Positions 54,437 to 63,493 of a stretch of DNA of 64,000 bases are shown here, piece after piece. How positions within the stretch are numbered: position 1 is the first letter of the stretch; each line of letters opens with the position of its first letter. The notes under the pieces are model-generated. The model was given only the letters and a program-made list of their open reading frames with translations, was not told the DNA's origin and made no database searches. The translations under genes and the position numbers were made by a program. Origin of the DNA: an uncultured Bacteroidales bacterium (GTDB lineage: Bacteria > Bacteroidota > Bacteroidia > Bacteroidales > Bacteroidaceae); assembly GCA_902774275.1 (NCBI GenBank), contig CACYHN010000007.1:27554-91553 (forward strand), given 5' to 3'.

Positions 54437-55161
54437 TTACGGGCAGACGGGGCGAACGGATTGTCCGTGGGCGCGAAAGGTTATTTTCACAGCCGCGTAA
54501 CCGGAACCGATCGCAAGAACGCCTGCGTTATAGCTTGATTGATCCTTATTCACTCAGTTTGACCAGTAGTGTCCCCAGGTACCGGCACTTTTATTGGAGG
54601 TCTCAAGCCGTAGAGAGCACCTACCAGAAGTCTATCTGGAGCCGATAGTACAAAATGATACAAAAGGGGTCTGTCCCCTTTTGTACGATTTCCGGCGGTA
54701 GGCAAGAAAATGGAACGTTCCGTATAACCAGGCTTATTACTACTGATCACATAACCTTTTACATTGTTTCGGGTAGTAAAAAGGTCAAGTGTTGTCTTGT
54801 TATCCACAAAGCCATTGTAACCATATTCACTCCTGTTGCAATATTTGGTCAATGTTGTAGTGGAGCCCTTACAATACTTGTATGTTGACATATCATACCC
54901 TGCAGCCTTATTGTCTTTCCAATGCGTCTGCGGGTTATCCTGTGCGAGCCCGGCATCATAGTATGGTTCTATCTCACCCCATGCAAAAAAGTCTCCATAG
55001 CCCTCGGGGGCAATAGCCCCGACATTACAGGTGGCCCAGTTAACACTCAGCCCCAGGTCAACGTACTCGTGGCCGTTCTCCACGTTGTTGCGTTGCTGAG
55101 CACTAACTGAAACATAGAGGAACAGCAACAATACAAGGAATATGAATTTTGACGCTTTCAT
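54437..55161 (-). pseudogene. Broken FISUMP gene
   Basis: The start is intact (signal peptide MKASKFIFLVLLLFLYVS, then EYVDLGLSVNWATCNVGA). The middle WGGxWRMPT part is missing: KTTLD is joined to FTTRNNVKGYV. After RSIFLPTAGN a 27-bp palindrome (54659-54685) is inserted and the frame is lost. The original C terminus can still be read in another frame (GHYWSN, a TGA, VNKDQSSYNAG, then HGQSVRPVCP and TAA at 54437). Deletion, insertion, frameshift and stop together show a decayed gene, though the 203-residue open part may still be made. Confidence 0.8.
54659..54685. repeat. 27-bp palindrome inside the FISUMP pseudogene
   Basis: Perfect 11-bp arms TACAAAAGGGG/CCCCTTTTGTA around TCTGT. One of four related palindromes in the window; here it interrupts a coding frame. 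Confidence 0.8.
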
Positions 55162-55166
55162 AATTG

Positions 55167-56447
55167 TTATTTAGGGCAGACCGGACGGATAGGATAACCG
55201 TTGAATTGAGCACTGGCTCCCAAACTAAAACCGCCCGAGGCAAAGCTGATAACATACGGACAATTAGGAGAGTTAGGACTGGACGGCCTGAGAGAACTGG
55301 ACCAGTAAAGTCCGTGATCATCCTGTCTATTGTTGAAGTTTGCGTTACCCCAACCGACAGCAGGCAGAAATATTGACCGATCCGTATAACCATGCATATT
55401 GCTTGTTACCTTGTATCCGTTAACCCCATTAATTGTAGTCCAAGTCCATGTACAGCTGTCCATAAGTTCCCGGAACTCATCTACTGTAGGCATACGCCAG
55501 TTCCCGCCCCACCTGACGTGAGCAGCATCATCAATCATTTCAAGTGTGGTTAAACTGTCTACAACCCCAGTGATAATATCCGTGTTATACTTAGAGAGCT
55601 TGATATTTTTAAAGAAATCGTCACCACTGATGCGGAACCGGTAGTTTTCCCATGTATATTCTGATTTGGGTTCCGTCTCACCCCAGGCATAATAATCACC
55701 GTAACCCTCTGGCTTATCGGCCCCTACGTTACATGTGGCCCATTTGACGTTCAGGCCCAGGTCAACGTACTCGTGGCCATTCTCCATGTTTTTGGATTGC
55801 TGAGCGCCTGCCGGAACAAGATAGAACCATGTTGTATCCATTTCTATTATCTGTCCACCCTGACGTAAGAATTCCTCCATTTCCTCATCACTAATGGGCT
55901 TTGGTGCCCAGCGGGGCCTTACAGGAGTATGATTGAACTTAAGGTACTGCTCTAACCAAAGGCTGTCCGGAATCTGGTCAATTGTTCTGTCTGCCGCCAT
56001 CTTTTTTGTAAATACGGTTACATTAGGACTTCCCATCTCAGACCAGGGGATTGTAGTATTTTTAACTGCTCTTTTAAGGGTCTTCTTGACCGATGCATGC
56101 AGACGGTTAGCCAGTTTGGAATCAATACGGATTGTATCGGACTGTACCTGATCATCATCACAATAGTATTTAAGCACCATCATGTAACCGTCATTATCAC
56201 GCATAAGATAAATACCGTAAGGATAAAAATCCCATATTCCGTTAACCGTGTAGCCACAGATATAATCATCGACAAGAATATTATATATGGGTGGAATGAT
56301 TTCGCCCTCTTTAGGAGTCTCAGGCTTGCCCCACTTTTCTCTTAAACAGAAATACTCCCTACCGTCATAGTCTTGTGCAAACACGCAAGTAACAACTGTC
56401 TGCAGGAACAGCAGCAATGCTAGGAATATGAGTTTTGACGCTTTCAT
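55167..56447 (-). CDS. FISUMP secreted protein with extra N-terminal domain
   Basis: A 426-aa exported protein. The signal peptide ends at VFAQ; residues 25-210 form a domain of unknown type (YMMVLKYYCDDDQVQ, then LANRLHASVKKTLKRAV), slightly like the 59247 protein. The FISUMP domain follows (EYVDLGLNVKWATCNVG, VRWGGNWRMPTVDEF, LPAVGWGNANFN, YPIRPVCPK). I chose the ATG at 56447, which opens the signal. It has the TTGCAA promoter element. Confidence 0.85.
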   Translation of the reverse strand: MKASKLIFLALLLFLQTVVTCVFAQDYDGREYFCLREKWGKPETPKEGEIIPPIYNILVDDYICGYTVNGIWDFYPYGIYLMRDNDGYMMVLKYYCDDDQVQSDTIRIDSKLANRLHASVKKTLKRAVKNTTIPWSEMGSPNVTVFTKKMAADRTIDQIPDSLWLEQYLKFNHTPVRPRWAPKPISDEEMEEFLRQGGQIIEMDTTWFYLVPAGAQQSKNMENGHEYVDLGLNVKWATCNVGADKPEGYGDYYAWGETEPKSEYTWENYRFRISGDDFFKNIKLSKYNTDIITGVVDSLTTLEMIDDAAHVRWGGNWRMPTVDEFRELMDSCTWTWTTINGVNGYKVTSNMHGYTDRSIFLPAVGWGNANFNNRQDDHGLYWSSSLRPSSPNSPNCPYVISFASGGFSLGASAQFNGYPIRPVCPK

Positions 56448-56464: not shown

Positions 56465-56522
56465 CAAAAGTATCACTCAAATAAGCAAAGGCCAAGAATT
56501 AGGCGTTGCAAAACTGTTGCAA
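56465..56522 (-). promoter_or_regulatory. FISUMP promoter with TTGCAA-N5-TTGCAA element
   Basis: Minus strand: -7 box TACTTTTG (56465-56472), TTGG (56492-56495) 19 bases upstream, and a double TTGCAA (56506-56511, 56517-56522) with 11-bp period just beyond. The element starts 30 bases upstream of the -7 box. Confidence 0.7.
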
Positions 56523-56613
56523 TCAATTTACACCCTTATACTTCGCCGCCAGTCTGCACAGTACATCTAACTCCTCTATGAGTCTGGTTCGAAAACAGGG
56601 ATCCTTCTGGGTA
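56502..56613. repeat. 111-bp direct repeat, copy 1
   Basis: Nearly identical (about 8 differences) to 63279-63390. It begins with the TTGCAA element and on the minus strand carries a short frame ending RLIEELDVLCRLAAKYKGVN before a stop. Its far end (GGTTCGAA..TTCTGGGTAC) resembles the T-arm and 3' end of tRNA-Leu. Confidence 0.75.
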
Positions 56614-56619
56614 CTAGGA

Positions 56620-56652
56620 AAAATGGAGGTTTTTTGACCTCCATTTTTTCGT
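56620..56652 (-). terminator. Terminator of the 57888-56767 FISUMP gene
   Basis: AAAAATGGAGGT/ACCTCCATTTTT hairpin, active in either direction. Confidence 0.8.
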
Positions 56653-56685
56653 CCCCAGAACCGGGGCCGAATAGACCTTTTTTTA

Positions 56686-56722
56686 GTTCGCCACAGCGAA
56701 CAGGGCGGCCCTCCGGGACCGC
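56686..56722. repeat. Copy of the dispersed hairpin pair
   Basis: GTTCGC-CACA-GCGAAC followed by the GGCGG..CCGC hairpin; matches 54183-54236 except for a 20-base difference between the two hairpins. Confidence 0.7.
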
Positions 56723-56766
56723 TCTCGCTCGCATACTTGCTTCGCCCCAATACGTTTTCTCGCGTA

Positions 56767-57888
56767 TTACGGGCAGACTGGACGGACGGATTTGGGCAGA
56801 TGGCGAGAAGTAACAGATTTCTTGTACTCAAAACGGTCTATAAAGAAACCAGATGCCGGTCTGTAATAATTTTCAGTAGAGCGTGAACTTGACCAATAAT
56901 CTCCTCTGTTTCCAAATAAATCAAACTCATTTTCCATTCTAAGATAGCTGCCTGAAGCGGGCAGGAATATGGAGCGGTCTTGATAACCGGGTTTCATACC
57001 GCTTATTCTATAACCTCCCATCCCGTTTTCTTCTACCCATTCCCAAATACAGTCTTCCATTAGTTCATCCCATTCCTCAGCTGTAGGCATACGCCATTTT
57101 CCACCCCATTTTACATGAGTCACATCATCTTCGGGGTCAAGAATCATTTTATCATCGGTAAAACCATCAAAACTATTACTATTGTATTTGTTGATATGAT
57201 GGTAATCATCACTTTCATAGAACTTATAATTTTCTACAATGTAATTATCCTTCTCTTCAAGTTCACCCCACGCATAGTGACAACCAGCCTCTTCAGGCTT
57301 ATCGGCCCCTACATTACATGTTGCCCACTTTACACTCAGGCCCAGGTCAACATACTCTGAGCTACCACCAACCAAATCAAAGGAGACATTCTGATAATAC
57401 TCTATTATTATATATGCGCCTTTCTTACCTTTATTTATTTGCACATAAACAGTTCCACTGTTCAGTTTAGTATCTTCTGAATACCATTGACCGCTGATAT
57501 CAGTTATCAAATGTCCTATTTTCAGTTTAGTATCATTTTTATAATAACGATGACGGGAATCAGCAGGTAATACAAATTGTGAATTGAACTTAATAGAGTT
57601 TACAATCTCTTTCCCTTCTATTGTGATTAACTTGCCAGATCTGTTTGTTGTTATGCTAGGCAGGCTGAATATCAGTTCTTTAACAGTTATCCCCTCTGGG
57701 ATTTTATTGGTGTCTTGGGGATAATCTTCTTTGCCTTGGGGTCTGGCCTTTGCCTCTTCCTGTATATCTCCAATCTCAATGAAATACTGGGCCAAAACTG
57801 ATTTACTCTGTTGCTTCCGGGCACAGGCTGGAATGCAGATTGACATCATCATGGATGCCAATACAAACAGAATGACCCTCTTACTCAT
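56767..57888 (-). CDS. FISUMP lipoprotein-like secreted protein
   Basis: A 373-aa exported protein; IPACARK near residue 22 looks like a lipobox. Residues 25-175 are of unknown type, then the FISUMP domain (YVDLGLSVKWATCNVGADKPEEAGCHYAWGE, VKWGGKWRMPTAEEW, DRSIFLPASGSYL, YWSSSRS, KSVRPVCP). It follows the small lipoprotein at 57908 by 19 bases, so the two are probably cotranscribed. Confidence 0.85.
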   Translation of the reverse strand: MSKRVILFVLASMMMSICIPACARKQQSKSVLAQYFIEIGDIQEEAKARPQGKEDYPQDTNKIPEGITVKELIFSLPSITTNRSGKLITIEGKEIVNSIKFNSQFVLPADSRHRYYKNDTKLKIGHLITDISGQWYSEDTKLNSGTVYVQINKGKKGAYIIIEYYQNVSFDLVGGSSEYVDLGLSVKWATCNVGADKPEEAGCHYAWGELEEKDNYIVENYKFYESDDYHHINKYNSNSFDGFTDDKMILDPEDDVTHVKWGGKWRMPTAEEWDELMEDCIWEWVEENGMGGYRISGMKPGYQDRSIFLPASGSYLRMENEFDLFGNRGDYWSSSRSTENYYRPASGFFIDRFEYKKSVTSRHLPKSVRPVCP

Positions 57889-57907
57889 ATTGCAATAAAA
57901 TTAAGAT

Positions 57908-58273
57908 TTATTTTTCGGCTCTTCTTGCCTTGCGGCGTTCTTTTTTATTTTGCTTTTCCAATTTCCTCACCATTTTTTTATTTTGCTTTCCCACTTTCCT
58001 GACCAATTCCGGTGGCCCATATGCCGTCTGTCTATAAAGATCGCTCTCTTTGGGATACGCACGAACTTTATCTATCATATCGGCTGTGAGCTGAGTCAGA
58101 GCAACTGTATCTCTTTTTACAGATACAGCATCCTTGGTGTTTACTTGAGAACGGTTAACGGCCGAAGTAGTCTTACAGGAGTTACAAAACAGTGGCAGCA
58201 GCAAAAGCGTTACACCTGAAACCACGTGACTCCACCTGCGGGAGAGCCATATTTTGATTCTACGGATCTTCAT
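57908..58273 (-). CDS. Small lysine-rich lipoprotein
   Basis: A 121-aa lipoprotein with lipobox FCNSC, a short Val/Ser/Thr part and a very basic end (RKLEKQNKKERRKARRAEK). It could anchor or bind nucleic acid or phospholipid; no family recognised. Begins an operon with the following FISUMP gene. Confidence 0.6.
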   Translation of the reverse strand: MKIRRIKIWLSRRWSHVVSGVTLLLLPLFCNSCKTTSAVNRSQVNTKDAVSVKRDTVALTQLTADMIDKVRAYPKESDLYRQTAYGPPELVRKVGKQNKKMVRKLEKQNKKERRKARRAEK

Positions 58274-58276
58274 AGA

Positions 58277-58331
58277 ACTTTCTTTGGTTGTTTGCTATCT
58301 AAACTGATTTATACGGAAAATGCGTCTTGTG
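58277..58331. repeat. Leader shared with 60506-60555
   Basis: GGTTGTTTGCTATCTAAACTGA and the following GAAAATGCGTCTT are matched upstream of the 60501 gene. Both copies precede a minus-strand start by a few bases, so they are probably duplicated leaders or promoters. Confidence 0.6.
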
Positions 58332-58482
58332 TTAAAGGCACATTTTATAATAAAACATAAATGTGACACAGGGAAACGATACTTTTGTGCTATATAAGAT
58401 GCCTTGAGTTCCTGCGAAAGGAATGAACTCTGGATTTCTTTTTCAAACTTATGAAGAAGATCCACCTACTTTTTCTTAGTCC

Positions 58483-58503
58483 GGGGACAGTCCCCAATTG
58501 TAC
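58483..58503. repeat. Incomplete 27-bp palindrome
   Basis: GGGGACAGTCCCC followed by AATTGTA, with the left arm replaced by unrelated sequence. Degenerate member of the palindrome family. Confidence 0.6.
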
Positions 58504-58525
58504 TGCTTTCACGTGCACGGGATAG

Positions 58526-59047
58526 TTATCTATAGATTTCCTGAAATAGGGAAATCATGTTTTCCGCAGTAATGTGCGTTTCATTCATCGTAACCCCATA
58601 ATGCCCTTCATAATAGGACAAATCAGGCTTTTTCACATCATTCTTAATGAAATAAGTTATGCGCTGGTTTTTATCAAGAAGATCTGTTTTGGTATATATC
58701 CAATCCGCAACATCCAGGAATATCTCACCGTATTTGTCCAAATACAATTGCTTGTATTTCTTTTTGTATCTTATATAATTGTGCTTCTTCCTTTCCTTAA
58801 ATTTATATTTATCAAACAGGAAGGTTACCTGCATATTAACTTGCCCGGAATCGGTTTTAGCGTGATAAGTTATTCGATATGAGCCATTTGACACCCAGAC
58901 TCCTGTATGAATGTAGGCTACATGCTCCGACACGCCTGAATTATTACCTTCAGAATTGTTTTCCTGAGCAGACACATAGACAGCAGCTGCTTGCAAAAGC
59001 AGCATTGTAAACAGGAGGATTATATTCTTTCTCCTACGGATTTTCAT
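58526..59047 (-). CDS. Secreted protein with GxYxITY motif
   Basis: A 173-aa exported protein with a signal peptide ending VSAQ. A beta-rich part (VSNGSYRITYHAKTDSG, VTFLFDKYKFKERKKH) is followed by a helical C-terminal half. It resembles the island lipoprotein at 41419. It is the third gene with the TTGCAA promoter element and is transcribed alone. Confidence 0.6.
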   Translation of the reverse strand: MKIRRRKNIILLFTMLLLQAAAVYVSAQENNSEGNNSGVSEHVAYIHTGVWVSNGSYRITYHAKTDSGQVNMQVTFLFDKYKFKERKKHNYIRYKKKYKQLYLDKYGEIFLDVADWIYTKTDLLDKNQRITYFIKNDVKKPDLSYYEGHYGVTMNETHITAENMISLFQEIYR

Positions 59048-59107
59048 AACTGCACATTATAGGCCAATGATACTACAGCAAAGATTTTCTTCATATCTGA
59101 TTTGCTG

Positions 59108-59165
59108 CAAAACTATATGTATACGTGATGAGATACAAGGATTTGGCGTTGCAAAACCGTTGCAA
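59108..59165 (-). promoter_or_regulatory. Promoter with TTGCAA element, 59047 gene
   Basis: Minus strand: TAGTTTTG (59108-59115), and double TTGCAA (59149-59154, 59160-59165). The element begins 30 bases upstream of the -7 box. Confidence 0.7.
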
Positions 59166-59175
59166 CATGCACACA

Positions 59176-59215
59176 AGTAAAAAGGAAACGGGCCCACACG
59201 GGTCCGTTTCTTTTT
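59176..59215 (-). terminator. Terminator of the 60501-59247 unit
   Basis: GAAACGG-CCC/GGG-CCGTTTC stem with A and T runs on both sides. Confidence 0.85.
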
Positions 59216-59246
59216 TTAAATGACACAGGGAAACGACCCTTCTGTG

Positions 59247-60002
59247 TCAAAAATCAAACACCCAATTGGCTGGTTTCTTGTCAATACGCAGCAGATAATA
59301 CTCACGGTACGGTTCCTGGAGCAATGAGGCGTATTTCCTGGTAAGGCTTTTGATGTCATCAAGCTTGGTTTTTATCCTTTCTGTGTCTTTGTAACCGATG
59401 GCATTATATATTGCTTTCACTACTGATACGAGCGCGGCATTGTTGCCACCTTTTGGCGACCAGCATTTGGCACCGTATTGCCTGTTGAAGAATTTATAGA
59501 ATGTGCCGTCAAGACCTACAACCGATGCCATTACTCCATCACCTGACTTAAAGCTATCCAACTTCTGCTGCATCCATTTCTTATCTGGAAGATTGCTGGC
59601 GGAATACACAGCCGCATCAATCAGCGTCTGCATCCTGTATGCCAAATCCTCATCTATCTCCAGGACATGGGGTTTCTGCTGATTCTGCACCATCAGCTCA
59701 ACCCGGAACTTCTCCGATTGCCGGTTGAAATAACACTTTATCTCATAGCTCTCCTCAAAAGAAGGCTCCTCTCTTATGCTCCAGCACTCGGTGTCATACG
59801 TTCTTGGGTTATTCCTTATAGCCTTCATCTGGTTTTCAAAGCCTTCAGGATCTTCAAGTATGTTTCCTACATATACCGCCTCATATTTAGGGAGAGTAAT
59901 GTCGCAAGGTTGTAAATACTCATTCGTTCCCTGTGACATAACAGGCATAGCAAGTGTCAGCATCAGGCCGGATACAGCCAGTTTAAATACTCTTTTATTC
60001 AT
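59247..60002 (-). CDS. Secreted protein of unknown function
   Basis: A 251-aa exported protein with a signal peptide ending PVMSQG. The rest is mixed alpha/beta (YEIKCYFNRQSEKFRVEL, LEIDEDLAYRMQTLIDAA, VVGLDGTFYKFFNRQYG). It has slight similarity to the extra domain of the 55167 protein. It follows the 60010 gene by seven bases. Confidence 0.6.
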   Translation of the reverse strand: MNKRVFKLAVSGLMLTLAMPVMSQGTNEYLQPCDITLPKYEAVYVGNILEDPEGFENQMKAIRNNPRTYDTECWSIREEPSFEESYEIKCYFNRQSEKFRVELMVQNQQKPHVLEIDEDLAYRMQTLIDAAVYSASNLPDKKWMQQKLDSFKSGDGVMASVVGLDGTFYKFFNRQYGAKCWSPKGGNNAALVSVVKAIYNAIGYKDTERIKTKLDDIKSLTRKYASLLQEPYREYYLLRIDKKPANWVFDF

Positions 60003-60009
60003 AGTTCCA

Positions 60010-60501
60010 TCATTTATTATTATCGGATAAAGGTTTCAGTCTCACCTCATAAGTGCTGCGGTCAATCGGATATCTCTGAGTCTCATACCCTTCGGCCTCA
60101 AAAGTCAGACAGTCCTCCAGGTTTCTTATTCCAAACAGGTTAAAGAAACCGTCATCATAGTCTGCATAGTAAATGTTAACCGCACGGTCCACAATATCGC
60201 GCTCACACACTCTTACCTTGCCTTTGATAACCTTACCTTCTACATCCAGGATATGCCCGTTAATCCTGCCGCCCAATATTGGAGCAGAAGCTATTGGCTT
60301 GTGCACCTCTTCAATATTCTTACGGCGCAAAGAATCTAACTGCTCACTAGTCATCTGGCTAAATTGGTTAATAAGCTCAAGTGTCTCATTCAGTCTGACC
60401 TGCAAATCCGCACTGTCTTTTGCTGCATCCGTCTGCTGGGCACTTACGGTAATTGAGACTGACATAAGTATGAATGTCAACATCAGGATAATCTTTCTCA
60501 T
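60010..60501 (-). CDS. Secreted protein with carboxypeptidase-regulatory-like domain
   Basis: A 163-aa exported protein. After the signal (VSAQ), a helical part (LNETLELINQFSQM) and a beta-sandwich-like domain (GGRINGHILDVEGKVIKGKVRV to PIDRSTYEVRLKPL). The start of the 60610 FISUMP protein has the same layout (ISGIVSDDVAPMWKVKVAE to PIDKTYFDIKIK), so the two are probably related. Confidence 0.65.
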   Translation of the reverse strand: MRKIILMLTFILMSVSITVSAQQTDAAKDSADLQVRLNETLELINQFSQMTSEQLDSLRRKNIEEVHKPIASAPILGGRINGHILDVEGKVIKGKVRVCERDIVDRAVNIYYADYDDGFFNLFGIRNLEDCLTFEAEGYETQRYPIDRSTYEVRLKPLSDNNK

Positions 60502-60505
60502 AATG

Positions 60506-60555
60506 CTATTTTTGGTTGTTTACTATCTAAACTGAAATAAATGAAAAATACGTCT
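60506..60555. repeat. Leader shared with 58277-58331
   Basis: Second copy of the GGTTGTTT-CTATCTAAACTGA leader, directly upstream of the 60501 start. Confidence 0.6.
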
Positions 60556-60573
60556 TCACATTCACACAAAAAA

Positions 60574-60600
60574 TACAATTGGGGACTGTCCCCAATTGTA
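60574..60600. repeat. 27-bp palindrome
   Basis: Perfect 11-bp arms TACAATTGGGG/CCCCAATTGTA around ACTGT. Confidence 0.85.
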
Positions 60601-60609
60601 CTCTTTGTA

Positions 60610-63222
60610 CTATTTTGTTACAGCGCGGATAAAGGCACCGCTGAACCGGAGGTATGGTGCAATGTGTATTTTTGCCCATCTTATCCCTTCAAGCAGCCCT
60701 CCGTGGTCTGCCCACCCTATGCCAAGATTCACCTCATCATCGGAGGTGCCGGTCTCATACTGGCTGAAACGCAATGTCACACAAGAATTAACACGTCTGG
60801 AACTTAAGTCCGATGTCATATATATGGCACTTGAACTATCTGTATACGGAAGGAATATTGAGTTCGATGTATATCCCGGAACCTTGCTGGTTATGAGATA
60901 CCCTTTTACGCCGTTCCGGGTGGTTTCTGTCCACTCACATTTCTCAAACAACTCAGCATACTCCTCCTTGGTGGGCATACGCCAACTGCCGCCCCAGTTC
61001 ACATGGGCAGCGTCATCCTCAGGTTCCAGCCTGGTCTTGCCGTCCATGAATGAAGCACCGTCCCATTGGTCAATCTTGTCAGCATACTTTGAGTACCACC
61101 ATCTGTTTTCTGACGGATAAGCTTTCATATGCTTATAGTTTATACGCGAATAATAGGTCTTGACTGTTGTCTCACCCCACGCAATACGGGCGCCTATATC
61201 CTCAGGGGCATCGGCCCCCACATTACAGTCTGCCCAGCGCACGCTCAGCCCCAGATCTACCGCAGCCGAATGGGTCAAACGCTTTATGGGGTCCGGTTTT
61301 ATCTCCTTGCGTTTGCCCGCTGATGCCGGCAGGTCTATTACAGGTCTGATTGTATAACCAAAACACCTGCTGTTACCACCCAAAGACTCACCCAAGGTCG
61401 ATGTCCAGTAATTAGCGCCTCCACCTGTAACGGTGTTCATGGAACGCTCCAGATTGTATGAATCCTTATAACCTGCTGCGGGCAGGAATATGCTGCGTCC
61501 TTCAAATCCCGGCACCTTGCTGGTAATAATGTAACCGCAGCTGTCAATCCTGTCTATATATTTCCATTCACACCGGTTCTGGAGTTCCCACAGCTCATCG
61601 GCAGTAGGCATACGCCAACCTCCTCCCAGCATCACCGTTGCAGCATCATCCTCAGGCTCAAGAGTACTCTTGTAATCAAGCGGGTAATAGGGATGACCCA
61701 CCAGCCCGAAATTATACTTTCTGTACTCATTTGATGATTTTCCAAATTTGTATCTCTCAATAGTATACAGACCATCCTTGGGGCTTGTCTCACCCCACGC
61801 CAGATAGGCGCCCGCTTCATGCGGCTGTGATGCTCCCAGATTGGCCGATGCCCACTTGACGCTCAGCCCCAGATCAACAGCCTCAGGACTGGGTACGGTA
61901 ACTGTCACTTTCATCTGTGCCTTTTGGCCGTCATACTCTGCCATGATATAACATGAACCCAAGCCGGTAGCCGTTACAGTACCGTTCTCACTCACTACTG
62001 CCACCCCGGGATCTGATGAGCTCCATGTAAACAAAGTGCTCTCCATCGGCCGATGCGACTCTTTATCCAGAGCCTTTACCTTCTTGATCTCACCGTATTT
62101 GAGCGCCTCATCACGCTTAGAGAGCTCAAATGAACCGGTAGAGCCGGAAACATTCTCCCTGACCGCACGTATGTTCAATCCCTTATATCGGCATTGGCCA
62201 TAAAACAAAGGAGTAGTACCGATAGAATCAGTAATAGCCTCACCTCTTAAACGGGCAAGGTCATTATTCATTGACCTGCTTGTGCTCACGGCATCGGCAA
62301 AACCCTCATCTTGGGGTGCCGATGTCCACATCCAACAGCTCAACCCCAATTCCTTATGCTCACTACCTTCTATATATCCGCCGTAAGGGATTAAGATACT
62401 GCGGTCCTCATAACCTGCAATCTTACTTGTATATCTGATACAGATAACATCGTTCACCGTTACGGTATCATAATGGCAGTTCAAATACAGTTCATTATAT
62501 TCAGCCGATGTGGGGATACGCCAATCACTGCCCCAGAGAGTTGTCGCGGCATCATCAATGGGCTCAAAACGCTTGGTGTTCCTGTCAGGAGATATATACT
62601 CCTTTTCCTTATAGGTTCTATCATAACGCTGATAAGTAACCTCTCCTATATGATATTTACTTACTGAATCCTCAGTTGAAGGGTCAAAGTAACGGTAGTT
62701 CTCCCAAGTGTAGCTTTCCTTGGGTTCCAACTCACCCCAGGCATAATAGTCGCCGTAGTCCTCAGGCTTATCGGCCCCCACATTACAGGTAGCCCATTTT
62801 ACGCTAAGGCCCAGGTCAACATATTCAAGATTTACTCTACCCATACCCTCAAAGCCGGAATAAGGACCGTCTATGTATTGTGAGGGATAGAGCACTTCAT
62901 CCTGGATTTTGATCTTAATATCAAAATAGGTTTTGTCAATAGGGAGGTTAACGGTATCATACATTTCATACGTAACCTGAATCCTGTCTTCCGGATTGAC
63001 AAGACGGAATGAGAATTCACCGTTCTTATTGGTTACCTTTTTTCTTACGGTTTTGCCCGATGAATCCTTCTCTGCAACCTTGACCTTCCACATGGGCGCC
63101 ACGTCATCTGATACTATCCCGGATATCTTATCACCAGCCTTAGGCTTACTCTGCGCAAACATAGAAACTACAGATGCTTGTATAAGCAACACTGCAGAAA
63201 AGAGAAGTAATTGTTTCTTCAT
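60610..63222 (-). CDS. Three-domain FISUMP secreted protein with Big_2-like domain
   Basis: An 870-aa exported protein. I chose the ATG at 63222, which opens the signal peptide (MKKQLLLFSAVLLIQ). Residues 30-115 resemble a carboxypeptidase regulatory domain, then FISUMP domain 1 (about 130-365), a Big_2-like domain (about 380-445: FTWSSSDPGVAVVSENGTVTAT), FISUMP domain 2 (about 446-635) and FISUMP domain 3 (about 655-870). Each has VDLGLSVxWAxxNxGA and WRMPT/WRIPT. Three copies may allow multivalent binding. It has the TTGCAA promoter element. Confidence 0.88.
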   Translation of the reverse strand: MKKQLLLFSAVLLIQASVVSMFAQSKPKAGDKISGIVSDDVAPMWKVKVAEKDSSGKTVRKKVTNKNGEFSFRLVNPEDRIQVTYEMYDTVNLPIDKTYFDIKIKIQDEVLYPSQYIDGPYSGFEGMGRVNLEYVDLGLSVKWATCNVGADKPEDYGDYYAWGELEPKESYTWENYRYFDPSTEDSVSKYHIGEVTYQRYDRTYKEKEYISPDRNTKRFEPIDDAATTLWGSDWRIPTSAEYNELYLNCHYDTVTVNDVICIRYTSKIAGYEDRSILIPYGGYIEGSEHKELGLSCWMWTSAPQDEGFADAVSTSRSMNNDLARLRGEAITDSIGTTPLFYGQCRYKGLNIRAVRENVSGSTGSFELSKRDEALKYGEIKKVKALDKESHRPMESTLFTWSSSDPGVAVVSENGTVTATGLGSCYIMAEYDGQKAQMKVTVTVPSPEAVDLGLSVKWASANLGASQPHEAGAYLAWGETSPKDGLYTIERYKFGKSSNEYRKYNFGLVGHPYYPLDYKSTLEPEDDAATVMLGGGWRMPTADELWELQNRCEWKYIDRIDSCGYIITSKVPGFEGRSIFLPAAGYKDSYNLERSMNTVTGGGANYWTSTLGESLGGNSRCFGYTIRPVIDLPASAGKRKEIKPDPIKRLTHSAAVDLGLSVRWADCNVGADAPEDIGARIAWGETTVKTYYSRINYKHMKAYPSENRWWYSKYADKIDQWDGASFMDGKTRLEPEDDAAHVNWGGSWRMPTKEEYAELFEKCEWTETTRNGVKGYLITSKVPGYTSNSIFLPYTDSSSAIYMTSDLSSRRVNSCVTLRFSQYETGTSDDEVNLGIGWADHGGLLEGIRWAKIHIAPYLRFSGAFIRAVTK

Positions 63223-63240
63223 ATCTTTTGTTTTTTGCAG

Positions 63241-63299
63241 CAAATGTAAACAATGACAGTATTTCAATACAACAAACAGGCGTTGCAAAACTGTTGCAA
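63241..63299 (-). promoter_or_regulatory. Promoter with TTGCAA element, 63222 gene
   Basis: Minus strand: TACATTTG (63241-63248) and double TTGCAA (63283-63288, 63294-63299). The element begins 31 bases upstream of the -7 box. Confidence 0.7.
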
Positions 63300-63390
63300 T
63301 CACTTTACGGCCTTATACTTCGCCGCCAGTCTGCACAGTACATCTAACTCCTCTATGAGTTTGGTTCGAAAACTGGTATCCTTCAGGGTA
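63279..63390. repeat. 111-bp direct repeat, copy 2
   Basis: Partner of 56502-56613. On the minus strand the short frame ends KLIEELDVLCRLAAKYKAVK. Confidence 0.75.
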
Positions 63391-63399
63391 CAAAAAAGG

Positions 63400-63426
63400 T
63401 ACCATTGGGGACAGACCCCAATGGTA
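63400..63426. repeat. 27-bp palindrome
   Basis: Perfect 11-bp arms TACCATTGGGG/CCCCAATGGTA around ACAGA. Confidence 0.85.
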
Positions 63427-63493
63427 CTCTTTTTATTTGCCACTCAGATTTGGTCACCTCTTGGTTACTTTTTTCAATTGGCCGATGCTGCTG

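Follow-up and report, generated by a model that had tools for sequence, protein, structure and literature searches.

A Pho-box-like direct repeat at promoters of secreted-protein genes in uncultured gut Bacteroidales, and a transporter-PhoU-PhoB-domain fusion as its candidate reader

We analysed a stretch of 64,000 nucleotides (nt), called the window throughout, from an uncultured Bacteroidales bacterium (GCA_902774275.1, contig CACYHN010000007.1, positions 27,554-91,553 of the forward strand), in which three promoters carry a paired TTGCAA element. The element lies at a constant distance from the promoter boxes, and the same geometry, with one base changed in each half, is found at phosphate genes of the family. 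In the genus, it co-occurs with a protein in which a Na+/Pi cotransporter, PhoU and a PhoB-type DNA-binding domain are joined in one chain. We infer that the element is bound, that binding activates transcription in response to phosphate, and that the reader is the fusion and not some other protein of the OmpR family. On balance, we favour the interpretation that the element is a derived Pho box, read by the fusion and driving a regulon of secreted proteins.

A direct repeat at a fixed promoter position

Exact TTGCAA-N5-TTGCAA sites were confirmed at 56506, 59149 and 63283, upstream of the transcription units starting at 56447, 59047 and 63222, as the initial annotation had claimed, and the window holds no other mismatch-free site. 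Dinucleotide-preserving shuffles of the window (n = 300) gave a mean of 0.003 exact sites (maximum 1), and controls in the genome and the genus gave none; chance was therefore rejected. With three mismatches allowed, 50 sites were found against 48.8 expected, which is the level of chance, so that only the exact sites in the window are meaningful.

All three sites lie upstream of minus-strand genes, and on that strand each reads TTGCAAC-N4-TTGCAAC, GCC, 6 nt, TTG, 20-21 nt and TAnnTTTG. Element 1 (TTGCAAC-AGTT-TTGCAAC) spans 56505-56522, with the TTG of the -33 element at 56493-56495 and the -7 box TACTTTTG at 56465-56472. The corresponding positions are 59148-59165 (TTGCAAC-GGTT-TTGCAAC), 59136-59138 and 59108-59115 (TAGTTTTG) for element 2, and 63282-63299 (TTGCAAC-AGTT-TTGCAAC), 63270-63272 and 63241-63248 (TACATTTG) for element 3, all on the minus strand. 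The TTG begins 9 nt past the 18-nt unit at all three promoters, and the unit is followed by TAnnTTTG after 32, 32 and 33 nt. Spacings of 30, 30 and 31 nt had been given before; the pattern of two equal distances and a third one base longer holds, but the values do not (33, 33 and 34 nt if counted from the last TTGCAA). The constancy of the distances to both TTG and TAnnTTTG bears out the earlier proposal of one common activator-type site at a fixed promoter position.

The genome of the window (G000; 2.1 Mb in 107 contigs, 78% complete) contains seven exact sites, against none for the reversed pattern. Five have the extended form. The other two (L002, G000:C5:52179; L006, G000:C28:23164) were set aside as a different architecture, TTGCAACC[C/G]GGTTGCAAG, an exact palindrome about 11 nt before the -7 box that precedes the gene of a His-rich protein and another gene, and that probably belongs to another regulator. 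The full architecture, defined as TTGYAAC-N4-TTGYARC followed after 32-33 nt by TAnnTTTG, with the reversed pattern as control, was found at nine promoters of this genome and at least once in 27 of the 37 genomes of the genus sample (g1, including G000), while the control gave none. The scatter across the genome that would have spoken against a regulatory site is thus not what was found, with seven exact sites and nine full promoters against a control of 0. In a set of 39 unique elements, the distance from the last TTGCAA to TAnnTTTG is 33 nt for 22 elements and 34 nt for 8, and 27 elements have the TTG at +10; four of the 39 (L012-L015) were fetched with the spacing fixed, and when they are left out the box is at 33 or 34 nt in 26 of 35.

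The repeat is largely confined to the genus. A scan of 84,980 species with a stricter form (one genome each, the window's own record possibly absent) returned 94 stretches; among the 80 listed, every title was that of Bacteroidales, Bacteroidaceae or Prevotellaceae, and the source, where named, was ruminant or horse. Of 399 genomes sampled from the family, 58 contain TTGCAAC-N4-TTGCAAC, comprising 25 of 33 from this genus and 33 of 366 from others, the latter with one or two sites each and seven of them in genus g30. The reversed pattern matches 7 of the 366, and the repeat is accordingly rare outside the genus, though slightly above control level. Two g30 sites were read; one has the full architecture (L255), the other lacks the TA of the -7 box (L254). 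Our literature searches on TTGCAA with Bacteroidetes promoters, and on FISUMP promoters, found nothing of use.

We then considered whether the site is a dyad or a direct repeat. TTGCAA is self-complementary, and the core alone reads as a dyad; the Nur box of Streptomyces has the same letters, so that a dyad-binding regulator of the Fur family could be its reader. A dyad needs a G at base -1, before the left half, mirroring the C of the right half. Our set of 105 sites includes loci fetched by a pattern that fixes both halves, the TTG and the -7 box, and only positions left free, such as base -1, are informative; base -1 is A in 64, T in 30, G in 6 and C in 5. The extended site thus does not have the two-fold symmetry of a Nur or Fur box, and one locus (L037) carries three co-directional half-sites at 11-nt steps. 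The Fur- or Nur-type dyad was rejected on the composition of base -1, and we give this explanation hardly any credence. The unit is a head-to-tail TTGCAAC-N4-TTGCAAC. The C after the left half is present in 105 of 105 sites, most of which were fetched with that C fixed; in a genus scan that left it free, all matches listed but two have it. Two loci (L019 and L040) carry a further pair upstream in the opposite orientation, which in L019 belongs to its own divergent promoter.

An open reading frame (ORF) of at least 60 amino acids (aa) begins within 200 nt at 100 of the 105 sites, with a median distance of 23 nt from the -7 box. Judged by our own simple hydropathy rule, 98 of these 100 ORFs have a signal-like N-terminus, compared with 15 of 35 window ORFs of at least 200 aa, in agreement with the secreted-protein regulon that had been proposed. 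Pfam matches of 69 representative targets were CarboxypepD_reg (23), CarbopepD_reg_2 (18), Lcl_C (11), DUF4419 (10), LRR_5 (6), Big_2 (5) and TonB_C (2), plus others. The conserved activator-type promoter element and its regulon of secreted proteins are, in our assessment, real.

Single linkage places 81 of the 100 target proteins in one paralogous group, and many elements are preceded by members of a few repeat families. Elements 1 and 3, moreover, are contained in the two copies of a 122-nt duplicated block (family D5; 56493-56614 and 63270-63391, 92% identity). These features would fit three copies that are a by-product of recent promoter-block duplication, with no regulator involved. The region of element 2, however, shares only about 30 nt with the block copies, the box and its spacing stay constant while the flanks differ among the 105 distinct sites, and 19 of the 100 targets fall into 10 other protein groups. 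Recent duplication as the sole cause, which the initial annotation had named as a refuting case, was rejected on these grounds and appears highly improbable.

Kinship with the Pho box

A review (PMC4415409) describes the Pho box as a pair of directly repeated 7-nt units with 4 nt between them, occupied in head-to-tail fashion. The window element is likewise a 7-4-7 direct repeat in head-to-tail orientation, and the window sites stand 32-33 nt from TAnnTTTG, as do boxes at phosphate genes of the family. The latter were found by a scan, with the 32/33 spacing fixed beforehand, for TGTAAC-N5-TGTAAC-N32/33-TAnnTTTG, which matched 66 of 399 family genomes in 17 genera; the control matched none. Thirty of these loci were fetched and 29 had a downstream ORF, of which 25 are phosphate genes (counted as PiT, Na/Pi transporter, PhoB-like regulator or OprP-type porin), many of them orthologous to one another. 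Their domains were PHO4 in 12, Na_Pi_cotrans in 5, a response regulator with Trans_reg_C in 5 and Porin_O_P in 3; the remaining ORFs were two PepSY-like, one flavodoxin and one in the wrong frame (L296, the fusion locus of G144).

Repeat, orientation and spacing are equal between the window element and the TTGTAAC box, and one base differs per half. In the family, this geometry with TTGTAAC halves is a mark of phosphate genes. We read the element as a derived Pho box with T changed to C in each half, and the sequences argue strongly for this kinship. Boxes with one T half and one C half were also found, at promoters otherwise nearly identical to those with two C halves (G034:C152 compared with G019:C34, and G026:C7 with G027:C22). 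Within the genus, one TTGTAAC-TTGTAAC box with this spacing was among the matches listed (L287, G033:C20:88145); it precedes a flavodoxin-like ORF and lies about 4.6 kb from the fusion gene of that genome. PiT could not show which box it carries in the genus, being present in 4 of the 37 genomes and in none of those with the fusion.

Comparison with described systems shows both likeness and difference. The Pho box of E. coli PhoB (half-site CTGTCAT) has, like our element, two 7-nt halves 4 nt apart, an 11-nt period, a head-to-tail arrangement and a position upstream of the promoter. The half of our element, in contrast, is TTGCAAC, usually followed by GC, and its scanned targets are secreted or surface proteins and not phosphate genes. 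A study of PhoRB in B. fragilis, a related gut bacterium (PMC3547664), refers to PhoB and to a Pho box of the pst operon; the system there is a classical two-component one, unlike the fusion; a term search of that text did not find the sequence of the box. Among the matches listed in searches on a Bacteroides or Bacteroidetes Pho box, no such consensus was seen, and one may still be in print.

A cotransporter-PhoU-PhoB-domain fusion as candidate reader

The initial annotation had proposed one unknown regulator. A shared regulator site is upheld by the data, whereas the regulator need no longer be called unknown, as the evidence points to a PhoB-type domain. In the 37 genus genomes, the DNA-binding domain PF00486 was found in a regulator of about 238 aa that we take to be RprY-like, in a few PhoB-like regulators, and at the C-terminus of a protein of about 655-673 aa. 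The last, a fusion protein, is present in 21 of the 37 genomes, in 20 of them in one open frame (some copies, including that of the window's genome, are short of the first residues) and split in G002. The copy of the window's genome lies at G000:C65:3336-5270 on the minus strand, its first few residues lost at the contig end, and is 93% identical to that of G025, in which Pfam recognises two Na_Pi_cotrans stretches, PhoU and a C-terminal Trans_reg_C domain, and no receiver domain (PF00072). PF00486 scored 3.3e-22 in the G025 copy and 9.4e-23 in that of the window's genome. The best sequence matches of the G025 DNA-binding domain in the PDB are chains of E. coli PhoB (3t72, 1qqi and 1gxp; E of about 4e-15).

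The fusion shares with the response regulator PhoB its PF00486 DNA-binding domain and differs in that it has no receiver, the DNA-binding domain being preceded by a Na+/Pi cotransporter and PhoU. Membrane-bound one-component regulators such as CadC and ToxR likewise combine a winged helix of the OmpR type with an integral membrane protein; the fusion departs from these in having a transporter with PhoU as its membrane part and in the C-terminal position of its DNA-binding domain. Yeast transceptors, as described in abstracts, resemble the proposed fusion in that a transporter doubles as a receptor, but they signal to protein kinase A, and those abstracts make no mention of a DNA-binding domain of their own. 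A literature search on a Na/Pi-PhoU-DNA-binding fusion gave none among the matches listed; such a report may still be in print.

In the 21 genomes with the fusion, we found no separate PhoB-like regulator, no PiT transporter, and at most one other PF00486 match, either that of the RprY-like regulator or a partial one; PhoR-PhoB appears to have been replaced by the fusion in these genomes. At least one site of full architecture is present in 21 of 21 genomes with the fusion and in 6 of 16 without it (Fisher 2.3e-5 and Mann-Whitney 8e-6, phylogeny ignored). When any PhoB-type domain is counted, fused or not, sites occur in 24 of 26 genomes with such a domain and in 3 of 11 without (Fisher 1.6e-4, phylogeny again ignored).

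We also searched upstream of the fusion genes themselves. Seventeen full-length fusion genes from six other genera were fetched, and 16 were readable (the script did not find that of G209); in 15 of these, the best 7-4-7 box upstream, with 10-14 of 14 letters, lies 32 or 33 nt before TAnnTTTG, an arrangement seen in none of eight unfused homologues, five of which have boxes of 11-13 letters elsewhere. The start codons in this test were picked by script, at least one of them wrongly. In G020, the gene of a PhoB-like regulator is divergent from an unfused Na/Pi-PhoU gene and has a TTGTAAC-N4-TCTTAAC box 32 nt, by hand count, before its TAACTTTG. No TTGCAAC box was found near the fusion genes of our genus in 20 loci searched. 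In a tree of the DNA-binding domains of 21 fusion and 7 PhoB proteins, which left out four fusions, the G020 regulator and all six RprY-like proteins, the fusions group apart from the PhoB regulators (88/82).

Several observations weigh against the fusion as reader, or against phosphate as its signal. Among the 69 representative TTGCAAC targets, Pfam gave no family of phosphate uptake or release. Sites of full architecture occur without the fusion in G003 (10), G020 (5), and G005, G010, G011 and G015 (one each); G020, G005 and G015 have an unfused PhoB-like regulator only, and in G003, G010 and G011 neither the fusion nor such a regulator was found. Two element sites, both lacking TA in the -7 box, were found in G001, and a PhoB-type domain was not; conversely, G008 and G013 have a PhoB-like regulator yet no site. 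In a sensor-regulator tree of 32 genomes (G002, G005, G028 and G032 not included, and G013 giving no usable row), G003 is sister to G000 and G010 stands beside G014; given this placement, the absence of the fusion from G003 (83% complete) and G010 (62%) may reflect incompleteness. The ten sites of G003 nevertheless lower our confidence slightly. As the window's genome is 78% complete, another regulator may have been missed. The co-occurrence is, besides, confounded by phylogeny and amounts to very few evolutionary events. Among the matches listed, the fusion is also present in the six other genera, where TTGCAAC boxes are rare. In our genus, 15 of 16 aligned fusion promoters (that of G030 differs) share a box like [A/G]TTAAGA-N4-GTTACAA, which is of the TTGTAAC type on the other strand and, in the two promoters counted by hand, has a distance of 36 nt to the -7 box. 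Lastly, we found no change in the DNA-binding domain that would explain the shift from T to C.

An alternative is that the RprY-like response regulator, also of the OmpR family, reads the element, the likeness to a Pho box reflecting only the common DNA-binding mode of that family. Of the 33 genus genomes fetched for it, 32 yielded the RprY-like pair, including G001, G003, G010 and G011, which have sites and in which no PhoB-type domain was found. Against this reading, full sites are absent from 10 of the 16 genomes that lack the fusion, 9 of those 10 having the RprY-like pair, and both the half-site, one base off, and the exact spacing match the boxes of phosphate genes. The RprY literature, in the parts consulted, offered no binding consensus for comparison. 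We consider this alternative unlikely.

If the fusion is the reader, the element would be a tandem head-to-tail site for its PhoB-type winged-helix domain. Lying immediately before the -33 region in a Bacteroidetes promoter of the form TTG-N20/21-TAnnTTTG, the site would be in an activator position, and its half-site would have shifted from the TTGTAAC of the family's phosphate genes to TTGCAAC. The transporter and PhoU part may sense phosphate or the state of transport, and the fusion, binding the boxes from the membrane and without a phosphorelay, would switch on secreted and surface proteins.

Genes and repeats around the window promoters

The gene under element 1 (55167-56447, minus strand) encodes a FISUMP-like secreted protein of 426 aa, matching Lcl_C at 6.4e-6 (26.9 bits, cut-off 34.9). 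Under element 2 lies a gene for a 173-aa protein with a signal-like start and no family assigned (58526-59047, minus strand), and further downstream, with putative co-transcription, one for a FISUMP-like protein of 373 aa (56767-57888, minus strand). The 870-aa product of the gene under element 3 (60610-63222, minus strand) is FISUMP-like as well, with Big_2 and below-cut-off matches to CarboxypepD_reg and Lcl_C. Two of the three FISUMP-like proteins match TIGR02145 at 20.8 and 19.7 bits (the latter being the 373-aa protein), below the curated cut-off of 41.65, the third has no match, and PF09603 matches nowhere in the window's genome; judged by these profiles, FISUMP is a weak label for the window genes.

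An enrichment of the element at FISUMP genes had been suggested as a check. The window's genome has 35 matches to a window FISUMP-like protein, of which 30 were fetched and gave 26 ORF starts, merged by hand into about 23 genes. The element is directly upstream of four of these (three found by script; the fourth, on C1 (L012), by hand, the script having picked a start codon upstream of the element). The overlap with the nine sites of the genome has a hypergeometric probability of 1.6e-6 to 5e-6 (2000 to 1500 genes assumed, shared descent ignored). The enrichment is thus above chance, yet most FISUMP-like genes lack the element and they make up only part of its carriers.

Between the -7 box of promoter 2 and the gene at 59047, a 16-codon ORF (MKKIFAVVSLAYNVQL-stop) occupies 59094-59044 on the minus strand. 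The start of MKKIFAVVSLAYNVQL is that of the signal peptide of a lipoprotein under a similar promoter in another locus (L071), and the ORF looks like the trace of a promoter that was captured, together with its old leader, by another gene. Upstream of the elements of many loci (for example L114, L064 and L097), a few repeat blocks end at the element or within a few bases of it; they include A, which ends in the reading frame LIEELDVLCRLAAKYK, and B, GAGTCAACCTTTTTTAGG with tandem units of about 32 nt.

With such junctions, the element might chiefly mark a boundary of recombination, such as the edge of a mobile repeat that carries a promoter, and its regulatory role would be secondary. At the loci examined, the element is adjoined by repeat A in 11 of 12 contexts and by repeat B in 15 of 19, a contig begins 142-144 nt away from seven of the matches listed in G007, G009 and G014, and the leader-peptide remnant suggests promoter capture at element 2. 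A mere junction would not be expected to keep a constant distance to the promoter box, however, and many sites have other upstream sequence. We therefore regard a boundary as the main role of the element as very unlikely.

Two further features were noted. A 59-nt block is common to 58270-58328 and 60498-60556 (80%). It precedes the genes at 58273 and 60501 and is possibly another common promoter. Palindromes of the GGGGACAGTCCCC type lie between genes at 54652-54691, 58483-58504, 60564-60609 and 63390-63435, and three of the four score as terminator-like.

Taken together, we see it as an evenly balanced proposition that, in this clade of gut Bacteroidales, a Na+/Pi cotransporter-PhoU-PhoB fusion replaced PhoR-PhoB and, through the TTGCAAC box, took over a regulon of secreted and surface proteins, relaying the state of transport to promoters without phosphorylation. 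If true, this would provide a Pho-box consensus for the family, TTGTAAC-N4-TTGTAAC-N32/33-TAnnTTTG, and would name a regulator and a signal, phosphate, for a large paralogous set of secreted proteins in uncultured gut Bacteroidales. It would also be a concrete case of a transporter that signals directly to DNA. A fusion in a single chain could, moreover, make it testable how PhoU-type proteins relay phosphate status.

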